A stretch of DNA of 64,000 nucleotides, taken from the NCBI GenBank assembly GCA_913061415.1, contig CAJXUD010000013.1:1-64000 (forward strand), in the 5' to 3' direction. The DNA comes from an uncultured Oleispira sp. (GTDB taxonomy: Bacteria; Pseudomonadota; Gammaproteobacteria; Pseudomonadales; Oceanobacteraceae). This document shows, piece by piece, positions 26,634-41,521 of this stretch. Under the pieces are notes generated by a model that had not been told where the DNA came from, searched no databases, and worked only from the letters and a program-made list of their open reading frames with translations. Every line of letters starts with the position of its first letter. The stretch's first letter is position 1. A program made the position numbers and the translations under genes.

Positions 26634-28331
26634 TCAATGAAAATTAAGTACATTAACAATTCCGGTATCCTGACCCAGTTCAACGTTTTTATGAATATTA
26701 TCAATTTTTTTAACATGTCCATCACGGCCGTGACGATAACTTTGTTCGTTAACAATGACTTTATAGGCTTTATTCATTAATAGCGCATGCTTCACTTCAG
26801 GCATCAATAAGGTACTTATGTCGGCTTCTAATGCTTTAAAAGCCGCTGTATTTTTTTCACCGTTATTATAATAAAACTTAGTTTTTACGGCATCATTATT
26901 ACGATACTCATTACCACTTGGGTTATGCGTTAAATAATATCCATATTCTCCAATTCCATCATTGCGTAATGGATCTGATATTCCAGATAAGTCTTTTTCA
27001 AGCCAGCTGTACCAGCCTTGCTTAAAGTTATTACTATCGAATTTACGCGAGAAAGAAAATGTCGTATCCGCAGTCGCTCCTGTTCCGCTATGGCAACCCA
27101 CGCAAAAATAACTTTCTTCATAAGATTGCGGCCTAAGGTCTCCTTGCTTATCTTCAATGAAACCTTGATATGTCCAACCCTGCGGCACGGTTAATCCCAC
27201 TTCCATATTACCCAGCACTTGTTTTGTTCGATCAGGGAAATCATGGCGCTCTTTAACTTCTTGAGTCGCAATACGTTCTAACTGATAATAATTACGCCAG
27301 TTATCTTTACGCGCATAACGCAGCTCTTTCATACGACTGGCCATCACGGTCTTACCATTTTGGGCATCGATATAGCGTACGCTGTGCAAAAACTCGGTCC
27401 CCACCGGAAAAAGGCCGGCAGCTAATTTCACGTCATCCTTTTCTAGTTTTGTTTTTGCTAAGCCAACATAGCTCATAAAAACATTATCATTAGGCGACCA
27501 AGAAAAGCGTATTGTATTCGTACGAGATAGCTTGCCATCTTTATTCAAATCTACGCTATAAAGTGTTTCATCTACTTCTGAGATGACTATATCTTTTTGC
27601 TTTAATAGAGATTCAATAATTGATAAATTCAGTTCATAAACGTCTTGATTGAAAAGGCCTTGTTCGTCTTTTCTAAATGCTTCGGGTAAGCGAATCATCA
27701 CGTCATCAGTTGAACCATTCACCGGCATAAACGTGCCTAAAAAAGGATAATAAGCAAAGACACGCCAGCCTGTTAAATTGCCATCTGGGGCTGTATCAAA
27801 TCCTTTTTCATTAAAATTATAATAACTGTCAGGAATGAAACCATCCCATTCGCCATTTTTATTTCTATCCCATTCTGCGGGTACTTCATTTAAAGCATCT
27901 GCTAAAATTAGGCGTCCATTATTCGTTTTATAGTTGTCTTGACGAACATAATTCAAAATAAAATCGTCCGTTATTTCTTCAACTTTTTCACTATTATCTT
28001 TGAACATGTTATGCCAGCGATTTATGACGCCTGGCTCGGGGAATACAAGTTCTTGCTGTACATCGATATCATTTAAAAAGTTAGGTGCCTTACTTTCGGT
28101 ATGACAGACATAGCAGGGATTATGAACGGCGCCATCGGCATCTGTGGTTTTTGTATAACACTGTGGGGGAATATAAGCCGTCGGATTTTCTAGAACGTCC
28201 TTTGTTAATTCATTGCTTGTTAATTCATTGCTTGTTAATTCATCGCTTTCAGATATTAAGCTTTCAGATTGAGAAGACTCACACCCAACAAGACACAAGA
28301 TTGCACAGTAAGAAAAAAAAATACGCAGCAT
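26634..28331 (-). CDS. Di-haem c-type cytochrome lipoprotein, unknown function
   Basis: 565 aa. Lipobox LVGC gives a lipidated Cys16. Two haem-binding CxxCH motifs, CYVCH (about residue 72) and CVGCH (about residue 415), so two covalent haems. A flexible N-terminal linker carries three in-frame copies of SNELT encoded by a 15-bp DNA repeat. No other domain is recognised. It is downstream of the PhoX-family gene on the same strand but separated by a terminator, so it is probably a separate unit. Confidence 0.75.
   Translation of the reverse strand: MLRIFFSYCAILCLVGCESSQSESLISESDELTSNELTSNELTKDVLENPTAYIPPQCYTKTTDADGAVHNPCYVCHTESKAPNFLNDIDVQQELVFPEPGVINRWHNMFKDNSEKVEEITDDFILNYVRQDNYKTNNGRLILADALNEVPAEWDRNKNGEWDGFIPDSYYNFNEKGFDTAPDGNLTGWRVFAYYPFLGTFMPVNGSTDDVMIRLPEAFRKDEQGLFNQDVYELNLSIIESLLKQKDIVISEVDETLYSVDLNKDGKLSRTNTIRFSWSPNDNVFMSYVGLAKTKLEKDDVKLAAGLFPVGTEFLHSVRYIDAQNGKTVMASRMKELRYARKDNWRNYYQLERIATQEVKERHDFPDRTKQVLGNMEVGLTVPQGWTYQGFIEDKQGDLRPQSYEESYFCVGCHSGTGATADTTFSFSRKFDSNNFKQGWYSWLEKDLSGISDPLRNDGIGEYGYYLTHNPSGNEYRNNDAVKTKFYYNNGEKNTAAFKALEADISTLLMPEVKHALLMNKAYKVIVNEQSYRHGRDGHVKKIDNIHKNVELGQDTGIVNVLNFH
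28202..28246. repeat. Three-copy 15-bp in-frame tandem repeat
   Basis: TTGTTAATTCATTGC is repeated three times head to tail (the third copy has one change). It lies in the linker-coding part of the di-haem lipoprotein gene and keeps frame, so copy-number change would only lengthen or shorten the linker by five residues. Confidence 0.85.
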
Positions 28332-28349
28332 AATTCACTCGTTTCCAAT

Positions 28350-28378
28350 AAAAAAAGGGTGGCCAATGCCACCCTTTC
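28350..28378 (-). terminator. Terminator of the PhoX-family gene
   Basis: Minus strand: AAAGGGTGGC, loop ATTG, GCCACCCTTTTTTT. Stem of at least seven GC-rich pairs and a T-run, 25 bp after the stop at 28403. Confidence 0.9.
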
Positions 28379-28402
28379 AATATTAACGTGCAAATATTAC
28401 GA

Positions 28403-30271
28403 TTAGTTTACAGCAGGGAAAGGACCCACATAACCGGTATAAGCACGCGCTTCACCTGCGCCCGTATTTTCATCACGATCAGACTCGCCATAAGGATGCT
28501 GAACAACAGACATCATATAAGCCCAACCATTGATATTAGGGTACCAGTATGGAGACGTTGTTTCCGCACCATAAGGCGTTGTTTGAATACGAACAAGATC
28601 TTGTGTGCTGAAATCGTAAGCCCAGATCGCATCGTTCTGGTGACCCGAACCCGTATCTTCACCCACAATTAATTTATCGTAGCCCGACATATACGTAACG
28701 TTATCGGGGTTTGATAAGCCGTCAATATGACACTTGTTTCCATTCTCGTAACCCACGGCCTGCGGCTCTGTCGTCGTACCATAACCACTGCCATCAACTG
28801 GACGACCAGCGATTAGACCTTTCATATTTTGTGCGACAAATTCTGATCCCATTCCCGCATTCGCCGCAAGGTCTAATTCATAAACACCACCGCATTTATT
28901 CATCTCAGTCAGTGCTATGTGATTAGGACCACCAAAGTCACTTGAAGAATCGTCGTCCATCATGCCTTTTTCAACAGAAGACATCGCAACGAATAACTTG
29001 TTGCGTTTCGCATCAAAGGTAACACCTTCTTCTTTTCTGAACTCGGTCGTTGCGCCTAGCATTGCTGCATAACGACGGGTTTCTAAACGTGAAGCGACGG
29101 TTTCCATGCCGTCATTTACTTTCAGGCATTCAAGCCCTTTACCACCCGCGTTGATTGCCGTAAACGTATCAGGGCAGGTAGAACCAACAGGGTCAGCTGT
29201 GGTAAAGATGTCTGCAAAAGTAGCCATACTCTTACCATTAGTACCCTTTACGTAATCTTGAATTTCAGCATCTGTCGCGTGCCCTAATGAAATCCATTCA
29301 AGATCTGCAGCGCCAATGCCTTCAGCAGACGTTTGATTCCACTTAGCGGCGTAGGTCGTTCCCGCGCTAAGATCTTTAGCCGTGTCTGCAACAAACATAT
29401 ACAAGCCAACGTTGGTGCCATCATCGGTCATATAAGCCGTTTTATTATCAGGCATCACATAAGATAGCTCGAACGCTAAACGGCCCATCGCGTAATGTTT
29501 AGTACTGGTAACGTCTGCACCTTCTGTTACAGCAACTTCAATGTTCCAACCGTAGTAGTAAGGGTTCCATTGATTGATATCAGTGTAATAATCCAGCATA
29601 CCCTTGGTATAGCCATCTGACTGCGCATCTGTGCCCGTGACCAATGAACGTGCATTCGGCTCATATTCTTCCGATGCTAAGTGCGTTGTCCAAGGTGTCA
29701 CTGATGCTGCACAATGTACCCAACCACCATCAACTCCAGACTGGTCAATTTGGCTCATGTTTTTAACACTTAACTCACCATTGCTTTTATCTTGATTTAA
29801 TTCCATCAAGAACATGGCGCCAGGCTTACTTTCAAATTGCGACACTGAAAATAATTTATTCCCGATCGGTAATAGTGACGTAAATTCGTTTGAGTCTGAA
29901 ATTTTAATCGAGCCATCGTCAGCTTTTAATACACTGCCCGATTGATCAATTAACTGGCCAAAATAAATACCATTAACATCATCTCCAGAGCGCACTAGTG
30001 TTTTATAAGCGCCCCCATAAACCTTGCCATCAATTATTGCGTCAGATGCCATTACGGTACGTTTCTCTGCATCTGTTTTAGGAGCGCTAACGCCGCTGAA
30101 TACCAAACTGGTAGGATCGACGACCGATACTGGTCCACCGGCACTTTTACCGTCTGTGCCTGGGGTTCCGTCAGCACCATCATCACTTGCACCGCAAGCG
30201 ATGAGCATGCTACTGGTCATGGCTAGAATAATCGCTTTGTATAAGGTATTTTTTTGAAGGAGTTCCATCAT
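28403..30271 (-). CDS. PhoX-family (DUF839) lipoprotein, probable phosphatase
   Basis: 622 aa. Lipobox LIAC gives a lipidated Cys near residue 26, followed by a Gly/Asp-rich linker. The body resembles the PhoX/DUF839 beta-propeller: ASEEYEPNA, LAFELSY followed by MTDDGTNVGLYMFV, GVTFDAKRNKLFVAMSS, HIDGLSNPDNV and LIVGEDTG. PhoX enzymes are calcium- and iron-dependent alkaline phosphatases. Whether this member is active is unproven. GAGAGA precedes the twin ATG (30271/30268). A candidate Pho box lies about 60-75 bp upstream, which supports a phosphate-scavenging role. Confidence 0.75.
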   Translation of the reverse strand: MMELLQKNTLYKAIILAMTSSMLIACGASDDGADGTPGTDGKSAGGPVSVVDPTSLVFSGVSAPKTDAEKRTVMASDAIIDGKVYGGAYKTLVRSGDDVNGIYFGQLIDQSGSVLKADDGSIKISDSNEFTSLLPIGNKLFSVSQFESKPGAMFLMELNQDKSNGELSVKNMSQIDQSGVDGGWVHCAASVTPWTTHLASEEYEPNARSLVTGTDAQSDGYTKGMLDYYTDINQWNPYYYGWNIEVAVTEGADVTSTKHYAMGRLAFELSYVMPDNKTAYMTDDGTNVGLYMFVADTAKDLSAGTTYAAKWNQTSAEGIGAADLEWISLGHATDAEIQDYVKGTNGKSMATFADIFTTADPVGSTCPDTFTAINAGGKGLECLKVNDGMETVASRLETRRYAAMLGATTEFRKEEGVTFDAKRNKLFVAMSSVEKGMMDDDSSSDFGGPNHIALTEMNKCGGVYELDLAANAGMGSEFVAQNMKGLIAGRPVDGSGYGTTTEPQAVGYENGNKCHIDGLSNPDNVTYMSGYDKLIVGEDTGSGHQNDAIWAYDFSTQDLVRIQTTPYGAETTSPYWYPNINGWAYMMSVVQHPYGESDRDENTGAGEARAYTGYVGPFPAVN

Positions 30272-30377: not shown

Positions 30378-31058
30378 TCAATAACGCTTTACAAAAACCA
30401 CTACACGTCGATTGCCTTGACGTTGCTGATTGAGAGGAAGGTTGTCAATTCCTTCTTTGGGTCGACTGTCTGCATAGCCTGCGGCTTTTAGACGTTCTTT
30501 TTCAATCCCTTGCGCCAATAGGTATTTCACAATATTGGTTGCACGTACGGAGGATAACTCCCAATTTGAAGGATATTTTTCTGTATGAATTGGCACATCA
30601 TCGGTATGCCCCTCCACTTCGACCATGTGAGTTTTATGACTGGTTTCTCGTATCACCTGCGTCACTTCTTTCAGTGTTGATATGGCTTCTGATTTAATAT
30701 CAGCAGAACCCGATTCATATAAAGCAACATTCGCAAATTCGATTTTTACACCTTGAGCATCAAGAGTTACAGAAACCTGATCTTCCAATCCCTTTTCCGC
30801 AATCAACTGCTCAAGACCTAATTTAATATCAGTAAAAGGCGTTGGCTGTGTTTCACCTGTCATCATTTCAGACAGGCCTTCTTTTAGAGCTTCGACCTTG
30901 CCTTGATTAATATCTGAGACAGACAGAATCATCACAAAGAATGCCAACAATAAGGTGACAGCATCAGAATAAGTAATTAACCAAGAACTGGATGAGTCTT
31001 CAAAGCTGGGGCGGCGACGCCTTAAACTACGATGCTTATTAGAAATAGAATCTGTCAT
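30378..31058 (-). CDS. MotB-like stator protein (ion-channel plug plus OmpA domain)
   Basis: 226 aa. Short basic cytoplasmic N-terminus, one transmembrane helix (about 26-48) with the ion-binding aspartate D32 in ITYSDAVTLLLAFFVM, and a C-terminal OmpA-like peptidoglycan-binding domain (VEGHTDDVPIHTEKYPSNWELSSVRA, GYADSRP). In flagellar stators this Asp carries H+ or Na+ and the OmpA domain anchors the complex. The helix looks closer to PomB than to E. coli MotB. Last gene of the five-gene motor-like operon; its start overlaps the motA-like stop (TAATG). Confidence 0.9.
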   Translation of the reverse strand: MTDSISNKHRSLRRRRPSFEDSSSSWLITYSDAVTLLLAFFVMILSVSDINQGKVEALKEGLSEMMTGETQPTPFTDIKLGLEQLIAEKGLEDQVSVTLDAQGVKIEFANVALYESGSADIKSEAISTLKEVTQVIRETSHKTHMVEVEGHTDDVPIHTEKYPSNWELSSVRATNIVKYLLAQGIEKERLKAAGYADSRPKEGIDNLPLNQQRQGNRRVVVFVKRY

Positions 31059-31861
31059 TACAGCTCTTCTTCTATAGGCTGATAACGAGCGTTCGGTTTA
31101 AGATAAGCATTTAACCGATCTTGCATAAAAAGCGCATCGCGTTTTTCGGCTAATAAAACAAAGCCTTCAACAATCATCTGGTCACGAAAGTACAGCGACT
31201 CCTGTTTTTCTGTGACTTGATTGGCTGCAGGGCGAAATAGAATATTGGCCAAGACAACACCATAAAGTGTTGTAATTAACGCTAATGCTAAGCCCTTACC
31301 TAACGCAGCCATATCACCATTCATATTATCGAGCATGATAATTAAACCAATAATGGTCCCCACCATACCGAAGCCCGGTGAATACACCGCCATGGTATTT
31401 AAGACTTTTGACTCTACCGTCATTCGCTGCCAGAAGGCGTCCATGTCGTCGGTTAGAATGGTGCGGATATCGTGGTTTTTATGACCACTGCTTAATAACT
31501 CCATACCGTGAGCTAAAAAGGGATCCTTACGTTCTTTATCGGTCAGTGAACTTTCTAGACCCGCAATGCCTTGTTGGCGATAAATCTGTGCCCATTCAAT
31601 AAAACGCTCAACATGCTTGCGTAAATGTTTTGTATCAGTGGGCGCATGAAACAAGGTTTCGAATATGGCTTTAACCGCCCTCAATACATCTGCGGTGGTA
31701 TAACTGATCAACGACGCTGCAAACGTACTGCCCGCAACCAAGGCAAAGCTCGATAGACTAACGAACATTAAATAATTATCAGTGCTTGAGACAATTGCAA
31801 ATATAAACAGACTGATCGCAACCGTAATCCCAAATAACGTACTAAATGAAAATCGATTCAT
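31058..31861 (-). CDS. MotA-like stator protein
   Basis: 267 aa with four predicted transmembrane helices (about 8-26, 32-54, 155-178, 188-210) and a large cytoplasmic loop. P162 (YSPGFGMVGTIIGL) and P211 match the conserved prolines of MotA. In the loop, R95 and E103 keep the eight-residue spacing of E. coli MotA R90/E98 and Vibrio PomA R88/E96, the residues that contact FliG. The protein therefore appears competent to drive a FliG-like rotor. AAGGA precedes the ATG. Coupled to the MotB-like gene. Confidence 0.9.
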   Translation of the reverse strand: MNRFSFSTLFGITVAISLFIFAIVSSTDNYLMFVSLSSFALVAGSTFAASLISYTTADVLRAVKAIFETLFHAPTDTKHLRKHVERFIEWAQIYRQQGIAGLESSLTDKERKDPFLAHGMELLSSGHKNHDIRTILTDDMDAFWQRMTVESKVLNTMAVYSPGFGMVGTIIGLIIMLDNMNGDMAALGKGLALALITTLYGVVLANILFRPAANQVTEKQESLYFRDQMIVEGFVLLAEKRDALFMQDRLNAYLKPNARYQPIEEEL

Positions 31862-31870
31862 ACTTGATCC

Positions 31871-33799
31871 TTAATTTGGATTCGCAACAGCGATCAATTC
31901 TTCCATAGAGAAACGACCCGCTTTTAATACTTCTCGCATTTTAGCCACGACTTGATTTCTCGCTTGCTCGGTCTGCTCTTGTGCTGCTTGGCCTTCTTGA
32001 ACTTTTAATTCAGCAATAACCGCTGAGCGCAGTTTTACTGGCAGGCCGGTTAATACATGTCGCTTAAATTCAATCGGGGTATTGCATAAAGACAGTGCCA
32101 TTATGCTGCGATCAATCTCTCTGAGTTCATTCGCGATAACTCGCTCTGGCGTTCTCATAAGATCGGCGTAGGTATAATAAACTTGGCGTAAACGATAATA
32201 AGTTTCTGGCTTATCAGATTTCAACGTTTTGAGTAAGCGAGCCTCTTCTCCACTACTCATGGTATCGAGCATATTAATCAACACCGATAGACCATTGGCA
32301 GACACATTTTCGAAACTCGGAACATTCAATGATTTCTTAGCTAAGCGGTCCGCAACATCTTTGAAGGTTGAAATCGGTAAGGTTTCAAATTCGCCTAATT
32401 CATAAGCCACTGCTGATTGCTCTCGCCCTTCTAAACGCTGTACCAAACTGGCGGCGCGTTTAGCAGGTAGCTGAGAGAACACTAATGCTTTTATTCGTGT
32501 TTCTTCATCTTTAATGAGGTACAAGACTTGTGAATCATTTAACTTATCTAAGAAAGCAAAAGGCGCGTTACCGGTTTCATCATCACCCAACGCTTTTAAC
32601 ATCTCATGTCGAAGGTTGTTCAGATAAGTGATTCGCTGTTCGTTATCCAACGGCTCTCTTGCTGCTTGTTCCGCAAAGGCCTCGGCATCTTCATTCGATA
32701 TTTTGGGATATAAACTGCGAAACAGCCCTTTTCCTAATACTTCATGCAGCGCAGCCACATTTTGATTGTTGCCACTGTTTAGCTGCTCATTAATTCTCTG
32801 CTGAAATAACTGTGGCTGGCCTAGACCAATAGTCACCAATTCTTGGCGTAATTCGTTCAACTGTCGGCGCTTATCTCGATAATCATTATTAGCCGGTTCT
32901 TCAGCGGAAACATCTGGTGCAATAGTCGGCGTCGAGCTTGGCATATCATGACTATTTCTAGACTTGTCTTGCAGAGTAGCGCCTAAGCGCTTATTAAATA
33001 AATACAACGCCAGTAGCAATAGCAGCATCATAAAACCAAAGCAGCCCAACATGATCCAGCCTTGGTACTTCTGCCAACCTGCTAATGCGTCATTAGGATT
33101 TTCGACCTTTTTAAATGTTGTTCTAACAATGCTAAATGAATCGCCACGCAGCTCATCTAAACGAGCTTTACGGGTAATTAAGTTACGAATAAATTCAACT
33201 TGATCATCTTTCAGCTCTTTATCTAAAACTAACGTAATCGTCAGTTTGTTAATCGTATTTCGATAGCCTAAGGTTTTATTTTTTATTTCTTCTATTTGCT
33301 TTTCTGCTTCTTGGCGTAAGGTTTCGGCATAATTTAATGCTTGCTGCCTTTCACTCTCAAGCTGCTGAATGCGAAGTTTAAGTGTATTAAGCTCGGCGCT
33401 ATTATCTTCAAAAACCGGAAGATCACTCGTCGGCAATCCAGGCAAAGTCTCTTCAACTTCTCTTGGTTTATTGGTAATGGTAAAAGGCAGAGGCTTTGAG
33501 CTAAATACTGGACGTTCAGGAATATTTTTTGATCCTGTGCTAGACCTTTCTTTCACAATGGTTCGCGTCTTCTTCAGTTCAGCTTCAACATGAATAATAA
33601 AGCGGTTATTGCCAAGGTAGGCTTGAAGGTCACGATTTAAACGCGCCTCCATCTCATCTTTAAAACGAACCTCTTCAACCTCGTCCCTTTTAGCGGGTAC
33701 TTCAAAGGTTTTTCCCGTTTCGGCGTAAGCATTCACCGCGGGATATATCACTGAAATAATCAGGCATAATTTGATGGCAGTTTTTAACACTCTATTCAT
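31871..33799 (-). CDS. Natural FliF(C-terminal)-FliG fusion protein
   Basis: 642 aa. Cleavable-type signal peptide (to AYA, about 26). Residues about 45-75 and 185-230 match the FliF/YscJ ring-building and collar region (EARLNRDLQAYLGNNRF, ITLVLDKELKDDQVEFI, LRGDSFSIV), with a coiled coil between (135-180). Transmembrane helix 248-270. The cytoplasmic part has FliG N- (about 315-405), middle (415-490) and C-terminal (500-630) domains. By-eye alignment puts lysine 589 at E. coli FliG R281 and E597 at D289, while K264 and D288 are replaced by Cys and Ala. ATG 33799 has AGGGGA six bases upstream. It lies next to MotA/MotB-like genes and far from flagellar genes. Confidence 0.8.
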   Translation of the reverse strand: MNRVLKTAIKLCLIISVIYPAVNAYAETGKTFEVPAKRDEVEEVRFKDEMEARLNRDLQAYLGNNRFIIHVEAELKKTRTIVKERSSTGSKNIPERPVFSSKPLPFTITNKPREVEETLPGLPTSDLPVFEDNSAELNTLKLRIQQLESERQQALNYAETLRQEAEKQIEEIKNKTLGYRNTINKLTITLVLDKELKDDQVEFIRNLITRKARLDELRGDSFSIVRTTFKKVENPNDALAGWQKYQGWIMLGCFGFMMLLLLLALYLFNKRLGATLQDKSRNSHDMPSSTPTIAPDVSAEEPANNDYRDKRRQLNELRQELVTIGLGQPQLFQQRINEQLNSGNNQNVAALHEVLGKGLFRSLYPKISNEDAEAFAEQAAREPLDNEQRITYLNNLRHEMLKALGDDETGNAPFAFLDKLNDSQVLYLIKDEETRIKALVFSQLPAKRAASLVQRLEGREQSAVAYELGEFETLPISTFKDVADRLAKKSLNVPSFENVSANGLSVLINMLDTMSSGEEARLLKTLKSDKPETYYRLRQVYYTYADLMRTPERVIANELREIDRSIMALSLCNTPIEFKRHVLTGLPVKLRSAVIAELKVQEGQAAQEQTEQARNQVVAKMREVLKAGRFSMEELIAVANPN

Positions 33800-33809
33800 C
33801 ATCATTCCC

Positions 33810-34532
33810 CTACCTCAAGCGTGCCAAACTGGATTTAACTTGCTCCATATTCGGATCAATTTCTAACGCTTGCTGCCAGCTCGCTTTGGCTTCTGGTATC
33901 AACCCCATCTTGTAATAGATACTGCCTTTTAAAGCATGAGCTTGCGCAGAATCAGGAACCAGCTCTAGCGCTTTATTCGTTTCATCCAATGATTGCCAAT
34001 ACTGTTTTTTGTAGAAGAGCGATTGCGCACTGAATATATGCTTAGTAGATGCTTTAAAATCTTGAATTTTCTTTTGTTCAACCAGATCGTTGCGCTGCTC
34101 AAATTCTTCATGGTGCGCTTCCGCTTTTTCATCATTTAAGCTGGCAAGAACTTGCTTATTCTTTTCTGCAATTTCCTCAGCTGTTTTTTGTAAATCACCG
34201 TTACTAGAATCTTCCATCGCTCCCGCCGATTTTGGTAGCTTCATGCTGAAGCTCACATCACTATCACCGGCATCAAGGGTCATTAATACATCAAAGCCTG
34301 GCCCGTAACGGTGAATGTGCATCAAGCCATGATTCTTTTTGGCTAGATCTGCGACTTGCTTGCGCTTCTCAATGGTTTCTAATGAGATCTCTGCGGTAGC
34401 TTCTGTGCTTTGCTCTCCAATCCCCTTTAACTCAGGCTGATAAGTCCCATACTTAGTCAGAGTTCGATTGGTTCTTTCATGCGTACAGGCACTGATTAAT
34501 ACTACTAATAATACGATCGCTAACTGTTTCAT
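33810..34532 (-). CDS. TPR lipoprotein of the motor-like operon
   Basis: 240 aa. Lipobox ISAC gives a lipidated Cys16. The middle (about 85-165) is charged and probably helical. The C-terminal third contains at least two tetratricopeptide repeats (FYKKQYWQSLDETNKALELVPDSAQAHALKG... and YYKMGLIPEAKASWQQALEIDP). AAGGACAC precedes the ATG at good spacing. It lies between the barrel gene and the FliF-FliG gene with 9-10 bp gaps, so co-expression is very likely. It may assemble outer-membrane and inner-membrane parts, as lipoproteins with TPRs do in other trans-envelope machines. Confidence 0.8.
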   Translation of the reverse strand: MKQLAIVLLVVLISACTHERTNRTLTKYGTYQPELKGIGEQSTEATAEISLETIEKRKQVADLAKKNHGLMHIHRYGPGFDVLMTLDAGDSDVSFSMKLPKSAGAMEDSSNGDLQKTAEEIAEKNKQVLASLNDEKAEAHHEEFEQRNDLVEQKKIQDFKASTKHIFSAQSLFYKKQYWQSLDETNKALELVPDSAQAHALKGSIYYKMGLIPEAKASWQQALEIDPNMEQVKSSLARLR

Positions 34533-34541
34533 AATGTGTCC

Positions 34542-35603
34542 TTAAAAGCGCATGCCCAGTGTTAAGTCATAACTTGCACCGCCAAATGTGCCAGTCTCTT
34601 CATACGCAGTATCTTTTTTCCACTTAACGACGGTGTCTTGCATATAGATCACGCCAAAGTCCATGAAGCCGTCTTTGAAAAAGGGAAACTCAAAGCCAAA
34701 CCGAAAAACCAAGCTATTCGCATCATTAAAAAATGATTGCCCAATACCTAAATACACCTTGGTTTCTAAGACATCATCCAATGAAGAGACATCGGCAATG
34801 ATTCGTCCTTCTAGGTTGTAACCACTTAGGTCAAAAATATCTCCAGATGAGTAGTTAGCAAAGTATTCAAGGCCTAAAGTGTATTCAACATTTTCGTTTA
34901 GCCCAGTGCTTTCTCTACGTCGAATACCCAATACGGTTGCGCCATTTAGCTCAACATCGTCAGCGGCAACAAGGCCTTTCCGTTCTCCTTTAATGCCCCA
35001 AGCGCCAACAATGACTTCATACTGAACCTTGTCAAAATCTTCTAGCTCAGCTTCTTTTGTTGTTTTTTTAGAATATTCTTTCAGCCATAGCAGTTCATTA
35101 TTGCCACCATCCACTAAACGCAAATTAATGGTGAATTTATCCTGATGTACCGAAGCACTCCAAAACATAAAGGCATCCGCTCGTACTTTCTTTGATAAGA
35201 CTCGTAACTCTTGGTTAGTTTCGGCGGCTTGCGATATTTTAAGCTCGTCTTCTGCCATCATTACTTTGGTGGTTCTACATTCAATACATTGAATCACCTC
35301 AAAGCGACCACTTTCCATTAAGCGCCCCATCAGTTTGTTTTCAATCATTTGATGAACTTGCTTAGGAATTAAGCGATGTAAGCGATCGCCATTATGGTAA
35401 AGCGCGATGCGTTTAACCTCTTGGTCTAAGTCGATCAGTTCTTCTAAGACTAGGGTCTTATCATCATCCAATAATTGCCCAAAGCCGGTATAAAGCGTTG
35501 CCGGGGGCTCGGCTATCAGTGGCAGTTCAGACTCCGCCGCATAAGCATAATTGATCGATAGCAGCAGACCGATACACAGTAGTTTTATATTTCGCACAAG
35601 CAT
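34542..35603 (-). CDS. Outer-membrane protein with FlgO-like N-terminal domain and beta-barrel C-terminus
   Basis: 353 aa. Signal peptide ending at AYAAE. Residues about 60-190 look like the FlgO/CsgG-type fold (MIENKLMGRLMESGRFEVIQCIEC, DAFMFWSASVHQDKFTINLRLVDGG). The remainder alternates polar and aromatic residues as amphipathic strands and ends in LTLGMRF, the C-terminal phenylalanine signature of outer-membrane barrels. Two cysteines (CIEC) could form a disulfide. ATG 35603 is chosen because AAGGA is six bases upstream; ATG 35609 directly abuts it. First gene of the operon. Confidence 0.75.
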   Translation of the reverse strand: MLVRNIKLLCIGLLLSINYAYAAESELPLIAEPPATLYTGFGQLLDDDKTLVLEELIDLDQEVKRIALYHNGDRLHRLIPKQVHQMIENKLMGRLMESGRFEVIQCIECRTTKVMMAEDELKISQAAETNQELRVLSKKVRADAFMFWSASVHQDKFTINLRLVDGGNNELLWLKEYSKKTTKEAELEDFDKVQYEVIVGAWGIKGERKGLVAADDVELNGATVLGIRRRESTGLNENVEYTLGLEYFANYSSGDIFDLSGYNLEGRIIADVSSLDDVLETKVYLGIGQSFFNDANSLVFRFGFEFPFFKDGFMDFGVIYMQDTVVKWKKDTAYEETGTFGGASYDLTLGMRF

Positions 35604-35719
35604 CAACATTCCTTAACCCTGATGTTTTTTTCAGATTTCTAATGTCAGCATAGTTCAGATATTTAGCTTCGAGGACAAATTCGAACAATTTGCTATACTT
35701 TTAATCTAACGGAGGATTT

Positions 35720-36085
35720 ATGAAGTCATTGATTCAGATAGCTTTTTTAATTTTATTCAGTCTGGCTAATTCCCATGCGGCATTCGCTGACAGTAATAAG
35801 ATAAAGAACAATTTAAACGTTATTTCTATTTATCAAATTGAAGATGATACCAAGGCGGGCTTTGACTTTTTTACGTCAGTTAAATCACATAAGTGTGGTG
35901 GCAAATTATCGAATAGATTTCGATCGTATAGCGATCATGACGCGGTGGCTGATAGGAAGTTTCAGTTGATTCTTTCGGCAATAAATTTTAAACACTCGAT
36001 CAGTATTAAACCGCTTGAGTGTGAAGGGTCTGCGATGTTAGTTGACTATATTGGGCTTAGCGCTGGACGCAGCGGAAAAAGATAA
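35720..36085 (+). CDS. Small secreted protein, unknown function
   Basis: 121 aa with a clear signal peptide (to about AAFADS) and a very good ribosome binding site (GGAGGA). The mature part is about 98 residues with two cysteines (SHKCGGK, PLECEGS) that could pair. A C-terminal block of the form V-D-Y-I-G-L-S-A-G-R follows. I recognise no family. It is divergent from the motor-like operon and could share its control region. Confidence 0.65.
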   Translation: MKSLIQIAFLILFSLANSHAAFADSNKIKNNLNVISIYQIEDDTKAGFDFFTSVKSHKCGGKLSNRFRSYSDHDAVADRKFQLILSAINFKHSISIKPLECEGSAMLVDYIGLSAGRSGKR

Positions 36086-38724: not shown

Positions 38725-39267
38725 ATGAAAACCCCACTCATTATCGCCTCATTTTTATGCGTTAGTGGCGGCATCATGCTGGCCAATGCACAAACGAGCG
38801 AAAACCCTTACTATTCAAGTGACATTGATGCGGCCGTTCAAGAAGCGGAAAATAGCCCTGCCGACGAGACTTACGTTGGTAATCGCTGGTATAACCGCAG
38901 CACATCAAAAAGCTTTGATTTTCCTAAATTGATGAATACAGAAATGTCTTCTGAAATCGTCGACGGGGCGTTAGATGCTACTGCAGCGGGCCCTGCAGAC
39001 GTTGCACCCGTTCGAACATCGCCATTAGAGCTCAGTGCTGAGAATATCATTATCAACAAGCAGAGTGACGCTGAATTAGAATTTTTAGCCGATACTAAAA
39101 CGCTCAGTATCGATACAGCGATACAACCATCTTCTAAAAAAGAAGATATTACGCCAGTATCCTTTGAAATTGATAAGATTGAATATACTTCTGGCGCATT
39201 CTCTGGAAGTGCCAAAGATATTCGCTCTACGTCACGCTCAAGAGCTTATTACACCCCAGAACCTTAA
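38725..39267 (+). CDS. Exported protein with YNRST motif, paralogue 1
   Basis: 180 aa with a signal peptide (to about ANAQT). After it comes NPYYSSDIDAAVQEAE, then RWYNRSTSKSFDFPKLMNTEMS. The same pattern recurs in the next gene, so the two are paralogues. The C-terminal half is low-complexity and polar. No known family. Upstream of the gene (38668-38708) the leader is an A-rich run of CAAAAAA-like units, leading to GGGAG before the ATG. Confidence 0.7.
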   Translation: MKTPLIIASFLCVSGGIMLANAQTSENPYYSSDIDAAVQEAENSPADETYVGNRWYNRSTSKSFDFPKLMNTEMSSEIVDGALDATAAGPADVAPVRTSPLELSAENIIINKQSDAELEFLADTKTLSIDTAIQPSSKKEDITPVSFEIDKIEYTSGAFSGSAKDIRSTSRSRAYYTPEP

Positions 39268-39282
39268 GTCAGGTAATGCTGT

Positions 39283-39711
39283 ATGAAGACGAATAATAAA
39301 CACATAATCGCCTTAATAATCATGAGCTTAACTCCAGTACTAAGCTGGGGGGTGAACCCTCATGACGAATACTATGCAGATGATATTTTTACTGCGATTA
39401 ATGAAGCGAAAAAAAGACCGCATCATTACGACTACAGTACGGCCAAACGCTACAACCGCTCTACGACGCAAAGCCTTGATATTCCTAGACTTTTAAATAA
39501 AGAGATGAGTATTACCAGCATTGATAGTAAGGATGAAAATTTGGTTACCGCCGCCGATACTCCGATCAGTAATCAGCACCAAGAGGCCTATGAAGTTAAT
39601 GATGATGGGGTAACAGAAGTGAGAGCTTTGCCGATTAATACAGTGTCACCACTGATTAGTAATCCGAACGTTATTTCACCCAATGTTAGAACAAATATCA
39701 TCGCCCGCTGA
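39283..39711 (+). CDS. Exported protein with YNRST motif, paralogue 2
   Basis: 142 aa with a signal peptide (about 24 residues, ending near LSWGV). The mature N-terminus HDEYYADDIFTAINEAKKRP and RYNRSTTQSLDIPRLLNKEMS aligns with the upstream gene over about 45 residues; the rest differs. It starts 16 bp after paralogue 1, so the pair is an operon. Function unknown; the shared element may be a binding or assembly motif. Confidence 0.7.
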   Translation: MKTNNKHIIALIIMSLTPVLSWGVNPHDEYYADDIFTAINEAKKRPHHYDYSTAKRYNRSTTQSLDIPRLLNKEMSITSIDSKDENLVTAADTPISNQHQEAYEVNDDGVTEVRALPINTVSPLISNPNVISPNVRTNIIAR

Positions 39712-39750
39712 TATTTACAAATGTTTTACACAGCCTCATAAAAAGAAAGC

Positions 39751-40650
39751 TTAGCGGGTTAATTTTGCGCGCACTAGGTGGCGTATCTTTTGCCCCATCT
39801 GCAATAACAACCTGTCTTTCATCCACAGTTTTTGAGCACTTTCAGACACATTTTTAGAGCCAACATCCATCATTTCATGGCACTGATCTAATAACGCAAT
39901 ACTGCCGAGTGTGTAATAATCTGGCGACTCTTCAAAGCTCTCATTTAACTGTTCAATCATCTGTATATCACCGCTTAATTCTTGCAATGATTTGCCGCTC
40001 TCAATCTGCTCTCGCAGTACCCAGCCCAACATAGCCAGAGCAACGTGCACATCTTCCCAATAACGAAAGGGTTTATTGGCCTGTTGATGTCCATCGATAT
40101 CCAATAGCTTCTCAGGTGAGATCTCTACTTGATCAAAGCTCACACCACTATGAGGAATATCTTCTACGAAAGGCGCCTTTAATGGCTCTGTTGCCGAGAC
40201 ACCGAGGCTATTGCTGGGTAAATAAACGCAGCAAAGTTGGCCCTCTTCGTTTTTTGCCACCACATACAAGCGGTCTAATTCATTCGGCATAAGCATCACA
40301 TAGCCCTTTTGTCCATCAAGAACCTTGTGCGCACCTTGCGAAGAAAGCTGCGTCGCCATATCCCAAGGTTTCTTAACCCCTTTTTCTGAGACACAAAATG
40401 CAGCAAGTTCATCACTAGGGCAATTCACATCCAAACAACGAATAGCATTTTGATAGCCCGCTAAAAAAGCCATACCCGGAGTTGCAGACTGCGCACCCAA
40501 ATATACGGCATTGACGGCGTTAGAGTAGTGCTGAGAACCCAGCATGAATTGCTGACGAAAGGTCTGTATATCTGAGAAGTGAAGCTGAGGAGATAACAAA
40601 GCATGCTGCAAGACTGCAAGCATGCTTTGTTTATTGAATGAATCTAACAA
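39751..40650 (-). CDS. Acyl-CoA dehydrogenase-like protein, probably inactive
   Basis: 299 aa, shorter than the usual 380-400 aa of acyl-CoA dehydrogenases. The middle (about 95-185: KPWDMATQLSSQGAHKVLDGQKGYVML ... GVSFDQVEISPEKLLD) resembles the ACAD beta-barrel domain (compare the 'hSGxxFDxVxVPxxxLL' element), flanked by all-helical parts. I see no flavin-binding or catalytic Glu motif. Likely a degenerate member with a binding or regulatory role; the family call is uncertain. It lies 4 bp after the coiled-coil gene. Confidence 0.45.
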   Translation of the reverse strand: MLDSFNKQSMLAVLQHALLSPQLHFSDIQTFRQQFMLGSQHYSNAVNAVYLGAQSATPGMAFLAGYQNAIRCLDVNCPSDELAAFCVSEKGVKKPWDMATQLSSQGAHKVLDGQKGYVMLMPNELDRLYVVAKNEEGQLCCVYLPSNSLGVSATEPLKAPFVEDIPHSGVSFDQVEISPEKLLDIDGHQQANKPFRYWEDVHVALAMLGWVLREQIESGKSLQELSGDIQMIEQLNESFEESPDYYTLGSIALLDQCHEMMDVGSKNVSESAQKLWMKDRLLLQMGQKIRHLVRAKLTR

Positions 40651-40654
40651 AGGA

Positions 40655-41521
40655 CTAAAGCGTGCCCGTCATCGCATTTTGCATGCGATCTAAGCGAATT
40701 TGAATATCTTCAATCTCAAGCTTCATTTCATTAAATTGTGATTCAACTTCAGACATAGAGCTGTTGAGCTTTTTACGCGTCGCATCAATAGAGCGAATAG
40801 ACTGCTCGTTATCACCAATACGTTTCTCGGTCGCTTCAGGTAATCCCGTTACCGATGTTTTTAAAGCCGCAATTTTAGCTTCTAAAGCTTGCTGATTATT
40901 TGCCAAGCTGGTTTTTAAAGCAGTAATGCTGGTTTTAGTCCCGCTGATTTCGCCATTCGCTGAAACGATTTTCTTCTCTAGTCCGGCCGTGGTTTTTTCA
41001 AGACCCGCGGCTTTCTTTTCAATACCTGCTGCTTTTTTATTTACTTGAGCAACCGACGCTTTAACGCCTGAAATCGCTTTAGTATTTTTAGCAATGTTAG
41101 GTTTGTTGGTTTTATTTGTTAGATCCCAAAGCTTACGAATCTCTGTCGCATTATCTTTTAATAATACTTTTAAAGCGCCCAGTGATAACGTTGAGTTTTC
41201 ATCAGAAGCCGACAATTTATCATTTAAAACTCCTAAGTTCGTCGCATGGCCATTCAAGATGCCTTCTGCTTTAGCCAACTGAGCATTCGCTTCTTGCAGC
41301 TGCATAAATAAGAAGCCCGCAAAGCCACCCATTGCCAAACTTAATATCAACGCAATAATCGCAATCGTTTGCTTGGGTGCAGGAACTGAAATTGCAGCGG
41401 CAGGAGCAGATTCTGCGGCACGCTGTGCAGCTAGGCGACGTTGCTGAAGCTGTTTTTTGCGCATTGCCATGTCTTCTTGTGATGCTTGCATCTTTGGTAT
41501 GGAATCTTGTTCGTTTGACAT
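40655..41521 (-). CDS. Single-pass membrane protein with long periplasmic coiled coil
   Basis: 288 aa. A cytoplasmic N-terminus of about 50 residues (QQRRLAAQRAAE), one transmembrane helix (52-72), then an extended coiled coil. Residues about 150-172 contain three clear heptads (AAGIEKK, AAGLEKT, TAGLEKK). No enzyme motif. The layout resembles envelope scaffolds, but no family is recognised. It pairs with the ACAD-like gene and is divergent from sodB. Confidence 0.65.
   Translation of the reverse strand: MSNEQDSIPKMQASQEDMAMRKKQLQQRRLAAQRAAESAPAAAISVPAPKQTIAIIALILSLAMGGFAGFLFMQLQEANAQLAKAEGILNGHATNLGVLNDKLSASDENSTLSLGALKVLLKDNATEIRKLWDLTNKTNKPNIAKNTKAISGVKASVAQVNKKAAGIEKKAAGLEKTTAGLEKKIVSANGEISGTKTSITALKTSLANNQQALEAKIAALKTSVTGLPEATEKRIGDNEQSIRSIDATRKKLNSSMSEVESQFNEMKLEIEDIQIRLDRMQNAMTGTL

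Follow-up and report, generated by a model that had tools for sequence, protein, structure and literature searches.

The window analyzed here, a 64,000-nucleotide stretch of contig CAJXUD010000013.1 (assembly GCA_913061415.1) from an uncultured Oleispira sp., carries a five-gene operon that, on balance, we read as encoding a dedicated envelope machine that is powered by ions, built from the core of a flagellar motor, and separate from the cell's flagellum. The host is an oil-degrading, Oleispira-like marine bacterium. The parts belong to known families; the assembly combines a flagellar-type stator, a natural FliF-FliG rotor, a barrel, and a lipoprotein outside a flagellar locus. We prefer a separate machine to an accessory of the flagellum because the stator and rotor are encoded together, the FliM site has been lost, and dedicated outer-membrane genes belong to the set. 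A more specific proposal, which we hold tentatively, is that MotAB and a fused FliF-FliG ring constitute a self-contained rotary motor. Such a motor would be distinct from flagella and type III injectisomes alike, would reach across the envelope, and would drive an outer-membrane process mechanically, with neither filament nor export apparatus. A preliminary description of this DNA had likewise suggested an ion-driven, force-generating complex serving an outer-membrane process, and this is still the best reading, with a flagellar or a cell-wall role as the rivals weighed below.

The five genes lie on the minus strand from 35609 to 30378 and, judged by their spacing in the open reading frame (ORF) list, form one transcriptional unit, with intergenic gaps of 9, 4, and 9 bp and a 1-bp overlap between genes 4 and 5. 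The ORF coordinates thus agree with the operon as first described (one strand, gaps of at most 10 bp or overlaps), except that gene 1 had been started at an internal ATG at 35603. The components are as follows:

34542-35609, minus strand: gene 1 (355 aa), with a signal peptide and, in its AlphaFold model, a periplasmic domain of the LpoB/TolB-N/FlgT fold (~45-183) and an 8-stranded outer-membrane beta-barrel (~193-355)
33810-34532, minus strand: gene 2 (240 aa), with a lipobox (ISAC), a conserved "GLMHIHRYGPGFDVLMTLDAGDSDVSFSMKLP" middle domain, and C-terminal TPRs (Pfam TPR_1, 6.7e-10)
31871-33805, minus strand: gene 3 (644 aa), the FliF-FliG fusion, with a cleavable signal peptide, the FliF RBM3/S-ring and beta-collar (~39-232), a transmembrane (TM) helix (247-274), a FliF-like tail, and FliG N, M, and C domains (~344-640)
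31058-31861, minus strand: gene 4 (267 aa), a flagellar-type MotA with the full cytoplasmic torque domain (Pfam MotA_ExbB, 2.8e-26)
30378-31058, minus strand: gene 5 (226 aa), a MotB with the ion-binding D32, a plug segment, and an OmpA-like peptidoglycan-binding domain (Pfam MotB_plug, 1.4e-14; OmpA, 4.2e-17)

A Pfam scan of the five proteins, with the curated gathering score as the threshold, returned matches above the cut-offs for genes 2, 3, 4, and 5 and sub-threshold matches only for gene 1. The scan upholds the MotA, MotB, TPR, and FliF(C-terminal)-FliG assignments of the preliminary description. For gene 3 the matches were FliG_C (3.2e-13), FliG_M (7.2e-13), and YscJ_FliF_C (8.6e-6). 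A profile built from ten divergent fusions matched solved FliG (5e-28) and, over residues 36-338, the solved RBM3-TM2-tail portion of FliF (5e-10). The AlphaFold model of the fusion has a mean predicted local distance difference test score (pLDDT) of 72.9 and a predicted template modeling score (pTM) of 0.29, and its inter-domain placement is unreliable. Within this model, one domain superimposes on the FliF S-ring (Z 13.1, root mean square deviation (rmsd) 2.3) and another on the FliG_C of a MotAB-FliG complex (Z 13.1, rmsd 1.5 over 88 residues), while the match to whole FliG has a Z of 15.6 with an rmsd of 14, as expected if the domains differ in relative placement. Sequence and structure therefore both support the FliF and FliG assignments, and the FliG portion additionally includes an N-domain that is visible by structure only. 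By Pfam, profile, hydropathy, and structure, the fusion lacks RBM1, RBM2, and the first TM of FliF, leaving a single TM. Given the signal peptide and this one TM at 247-274, RBM3 would lie in the periplasm and the FliG half in the cytoplasm.

The fusion has an ancestry separate from flagellar FliG. In a tree with 22 flagellar FliGs, the fusion FliGs form one clade with 100/100 support, set apart by long branches. The FliM-binding EHPQ motif is absent from the alignment rows of all 15 fusions, as expected for a rotor without FliM, and is kept in 21 of the 22 flagellar rows, with EQPK in the remaining one. Nearly all fusions have K or R at the position of Escherichia coli FliG R281. That the two proteins could work as a single chain is mechanically plausible by analogy, since engineered FliF-FliG fusions assemble into rings of 34 or 35 subunits, and one from Salmonella was reported to be functional (PMC11481574). 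FliG-containing ORFs of 636-739 aa in another genome (G1103) were rejected as fusions, as they have no FliF domain and one of them sits in a flagellar cluster.

The stator likewise is of the flagellar type. In 17-genome alignments, MotB D32 and MotA R95, P162, and P211 are invariant and MotA E103 is at least 90% conserved, which bears out the key residues named in the preliminary description. With the domain matches and model scores, these residues identify the pair as a MotA/MotB stator of the flagellar ion transporter (FIT) type. Gene 4 scores 130-165 bits against the MotP, MotA, and PomA models versus 19 against TolQ, and among solved structures it is most closely related to MotA and PomA (4e-43 to the MotA of the MotAB-FliG structure 8ucs). 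With only 27% identity to the host's own PomA-like protein and 32% to its own MotD-like protein, the sequence comparison indicates that the operon stator is not a recent copy of the host's other stators. A 2025 stator phylogeny separated flagellar from generic ion transporters and tied A subunits with a torque interface to flagellar motility (PMC12505986). In the operon, a flagellar-type stator is accompanied by its own FliG rotor, apart from the flagellum, and this holds in several families.

The two remaining genes are dedicated to the outer membrane. The barrel of gene 1 was described correctly at the outset; its "FlgO-like" domain does not reach FlgO family membership by the Pfam cut-off, as the matches to FlgT_M (0.019) and FlgO (0.1) are sub-threshold. 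The AlphaFold model supports an LpoB/TolB-N/FlgT-type fold, with the periplasmic domain resembling LpoB (Z 11.2) and a chain of the Vibrio LPHT ring (Z 8.4), and the barrel resembling OprF (Z 13.3) and NspA (Z 13.1). The protein ends in phenylalanine. A sequence search of the PDB with gene 1 gave LpoB as the sole, weak match. In gene 2, the lipobox Cys16 is invariant across 18 homologues. Under the usual sorting rule, lipoproteins with a +2 residue other than Asp go to the outer membrane; the +2 residue of gene 2 is not Asp, and the lipoprotein is expected there. At a locus in a further genome (G539, L101:10558-11984), a gene 1 homologue is followed by a truncated lipoprotein that lacks the TPRs; the two lie next to a tRNA cluster, and neither the fusion nor stator genes adjoin them. 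The outer-membrane pair may thus exist without the motor.

From these parts we infer the following working cycle. Peptidoglycan-anchored MotAB units would conduct ions, and the cytoplasmic faces of MotA would push on the FliG_C of the fusion to exert torque. The fusion would assemble as a ring like the FliF S-ring, with its FliG half in the cytoplasm and its RBM3/beta-collar half in the periplasm. The periplasmic ring would in turn work on or against an outer-membrane partner made up of the gene 2 TPR lipoprotein and the gene 1 barrel with its LpoB/FlgT-type fold, so that ion flow would be converted to ring rotation, or to a cyclic force, transmitted through the peptidoglycan as far as the outer membrane. 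Independence from the flagellum, and with it any cargo and purpose of its own, is likewise part of what we infer.

How the operon relates to the host's flagellum is central to this reading. The preliminary description had spoken of a motor without flagellar genes, which is accurate for the locus but not for the genome, as a complete flagellar system with its own FliF and FliG is encoded on another contig (C6), FliM/FliN are present, and there are three stator pairs besides the operon's MotAB. Because the organism is flagellated, the operon is a system additional to the flagellum and not a replacement for it. The description was right that no hook, rod, filament, or export genes lie nearby; in the 20-kb neighborhoods of the examined relatives, including those of families f66 and f98, no flagellar genes adjoin the operon, and none of these relatives has the five genes within a flagellar cluster. 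One genome of family f66 (G438) yielded neither FlhA nor a flagellar FliG in a genome search.

Several observations weigh against a separate machine. FlhA was found in 25 of 25 carriers in the relatives set, and nearly all carriers tested are flagellated. G438 is a metagenome-assembled genome (MAG) fragmented into 810 contigs. A second candidate for a flagellum-free carrier, G1139, in which a whole-genome FliG search found only the fusion, was rejected, as homologues of FlgH/I/J/K/L, FleQ, and flagellin occur in the 1.24 Mb sampled (about one-quarter of the genome), and it is thus flagellated. Since G1139 had looked alike by FliG, and given its fragmentation, G438 is suggestive only as a flagellum-free carrier. 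In addition, the operon encodes no rod- or hook-like output part, and the acidic torque pair D288/D289 of E. coli FliG is partly E/D in the fusions and lost in those of f98.

These points bring forward an accessory of the polar flagellum, i.e., an additional stator/rotor or outer bushing ring that would give the same flagellum more torque or stability (cf. FlgO/FlgP/FlgT, MotX/MotY, and the Campylobacter disks), which we consider unlikely. Beyond the flagella of nearly every tested carrier, it would fit the FlgT/LpoB-type fold of gene 1, which the Vibrio LPHT ring also contains, and marine gammaproteobacteria are known to have H-ring parts (PMC6375700). Several carriers also bear thick flagella built from a giant flagellin, for which Bermanella, Oleibacter, Oleispira, Thalassolituus, and Gynuella have been listed (PMC6248924). 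However, giant or large flagellins (746-1306 aa; L135-L163) are widespread in the family, beyond the species of that study, and a link to the operon was rejected because the lengths in carriers (820-1306 aa) and in non-carriers of the same family (746 to ~1,276 aa) overlap, such that flagellin size does not separate the two. An accessory would also have no need of a second FliF and FliG fused in one chain. Moreover, the fusions have lost the FliM site, the locus is never close to flagellar genes, candidate sigma-28 and sigma-54 promoters upstream of gene 1 scored no better than in shuffled sequence, and G438 has no detectable flagellar FliG or FlhA.

A separate machine with a different output is also conceivable. 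The operon could encode an energized device for remodeling or constricting the wall and outer membrane, used in a Tol-Pal-like manner, in which ion-driven contact cycles link the inner-membrane ring, peptidoglycan, and the LpoB-like protein; such a device would affect septation, cell shape, or wall synthesis. We regard this as rather improbable. The LpoB-like periplasmic domain of gene 1 and the peptidoglycan-binding MotB are consistent with it, and in f98 a gene with Sel1 repeats and a SPOR domain abuts the operon. SPOR domains bind septal denuded glycan. Several carriers are, furthermore, curved or spiral cells (PMC6248924). On the other hand, the LpoB-type fold also occurs in TolB-N, FlgT, and other proteins of differing roles, the SPOR gene is not beside the operon in other families, no wall-synthesis gene is linked to the operon, and a TolQR-like push-pull device has no need of a FliG rotor.

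The distribution of the gene set was surveyed at several levels. Among 143 genomes of relatives, 25 have the fusion, 24 of them in the window's family and one a Gynuella-like genome of another family; the nearest named loci are from Oleispira, Thalassolituus, Oleibacter, Oceanobacter, and Bermanella. All 18 loci inspected in related genomes have the five genes side by side. Further full sets are present in an open-ocean Pseudomonadales MAG (ALOHA), in G438 of f66, and in f98, where the order is rearranged to MotA-MotB-gene 1-gene 2-fusion, so that the set spans at least four gammaproteobacterial families plus the open-ocean MAG. This co-conservation, in all 18 related loci and in further families, indicates more than a chance arrangement. 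The gene set is nonetheless rare. Strong gene 1 matches were confined to the window's family and the Gynuella-like genome among 391 genomes of the order, three others were found among 369 genomes of the class, and a phylum survey of 398 genomes gave no further full-length fusion. A mobile-element origin was rejected, as no plasmid or viral relatives were detected. The neighbors vary by genus or family, being fumarase and superoxide dismutase, CTP synthase/enolase, or lysA.

In f98, a gene encoding 496-526 aa lies directly 5' of MotA and abuts the operon, and the two proteins scanned have the Sel1 repeats and SPOR domain mentioned above. This gene is likely a sixth component in that family. Its positions are as follows:

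L100, 12974-14545: gene preceding MotA
L128, 5010-6557: gene preceding MotA
L129, 4672-6198: gene preceding MotA
L130, 9125-10705: gene preceding MotA
L131, 6386-7876: gene preceding MotA

The ratio of nonsynonymous to synonymous substitution rates (dN/dS) is below 0.07 for all five genes in Oleispira-group genomes, a value to be taken qualitatively as dS is near or beyond saturation. Together with the intact gene sets across families, this points to strong purifying selection and argues against decay. It bears on the possibility that the operon is a non-functional, degenerate remnant of a second flagellar system, which we find very improbable. A remnant would explain why the flagellar motor is only partly present, and the fusion gene of a Thalassolituus-like MAG (G013, C10:386898-388781; L012, L030) does contain an in-frame TAG, reflecting a sequencing error or else a recent loss. 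Yet intact five-gene sets persist in several families, D32, R95, P162, and P211 are invariant, and the operon includes dedicated outer-membrane genes, which are no remnant of a flagellum; the remnant explanation is largely refuted by this conservation.

Several known systems come close to the proposed envelope machine. With the flagellar motor it shares MotA/MotB with plug and peptidoglycan-binding domain, the FliF S-ring/beta-collar and TM2, FliG N/M/C, and the key stator residues. It differs in that FliF and FliG are naturally fused and lack RBM1, RBM2, TM1, and EHPQ, the FliG forms its own deep clade, the locus has no FliM/FliN, export, rod, hook, or filament genes, and two dedicated outer-membrane genes are added. 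The Vibrio H and T rings (FlgO, FlgP, FlgT, MotX, MotY) similarly place outer-membrane-associated periplasmic parts near a stator and share the FlgT/LpoB-type fold, whereas gene 1 encodes a beta-barrel protein that scores under the Pfam cut-offs for FlgO and FlgT, and the operon encodes its own stator and rotor. Agl-Glt, GldLM/PorLM, TolQR-Pal, and ExbBD-TonB all use an ion-driven inner-membrane motor of the 5:2 type to act on the periplasm and outer membrane, but their motors are TolQ/ExbB-type or unrelated and have no FliG rotor; unlike Tol-Pal, Ton, and Agl, the operon has a flagellar-type stator and a FliF-FliG ring, and its B subunit has a plug and OmpA domain and is not of the short TolR/ExbD type. 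Zorya (ZorAB) is a MotAB-related inner-membrane motor outside the flagellum, but the operon's MotA is of normal, flagellar-type length without the long tail, and a Zorya defense function was rejected as PADLOC gave a weak ZorB, a negligible ZorA, and no ZorC/D/E among the five proteins. The SpoIIIAG sporulation ring also uses a FliF/SctJ-type ring-building fold outside flagella (Z 8.2 against the fusion), in a Gram-positive forespore channel with no stator or FliG.

The preliminary description had not recognized a named system; the assembly likewise corresponds to none in Pfam, NCBIfam, or PADLOC, and a literature search, for which subscription papers were mostly out of reach, found no description of such a system. 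Proof that it works without the flagellum would make it a categorically new machine. Independence, if true, would mean that the rotary core is separable from swimming and secretion, would provide a minimal motor, a stator plus a single fused rotor protein, that could be studied in vitro, and would be relevant to how parts of the flagellum come to serve other functions in the envelope.

Several features around the operon are worth recording. A small secreted protein with no Pfam match (35720-36085, plus strand) is divergent from the operon start and outside the core set; a homologue occupies the same position in about two-thirds of the family loci, making it a possible associate of the operon. 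Downstream of the operon (26634-30271, minus strand), a PhoX-like protein is paired with a 565-aa protein that has CxxCH-type motifs. Several relatives also have this pair next to the operon, in one orientation or the other and in some cases strongly diverged, with ~30% identity within the genus. Inside the start of the 26634-28331 gene, three tandem 15-bp units (28202-28248) encode a repeated SNELT peptide. Finally, four genes without a convincing Pfam assignment (38725-41521) lie between a DUF2846 lipoprotein gene and superoxide dismutase, in a block whose order is conserved across the family and whose sequence is fast-evolving.

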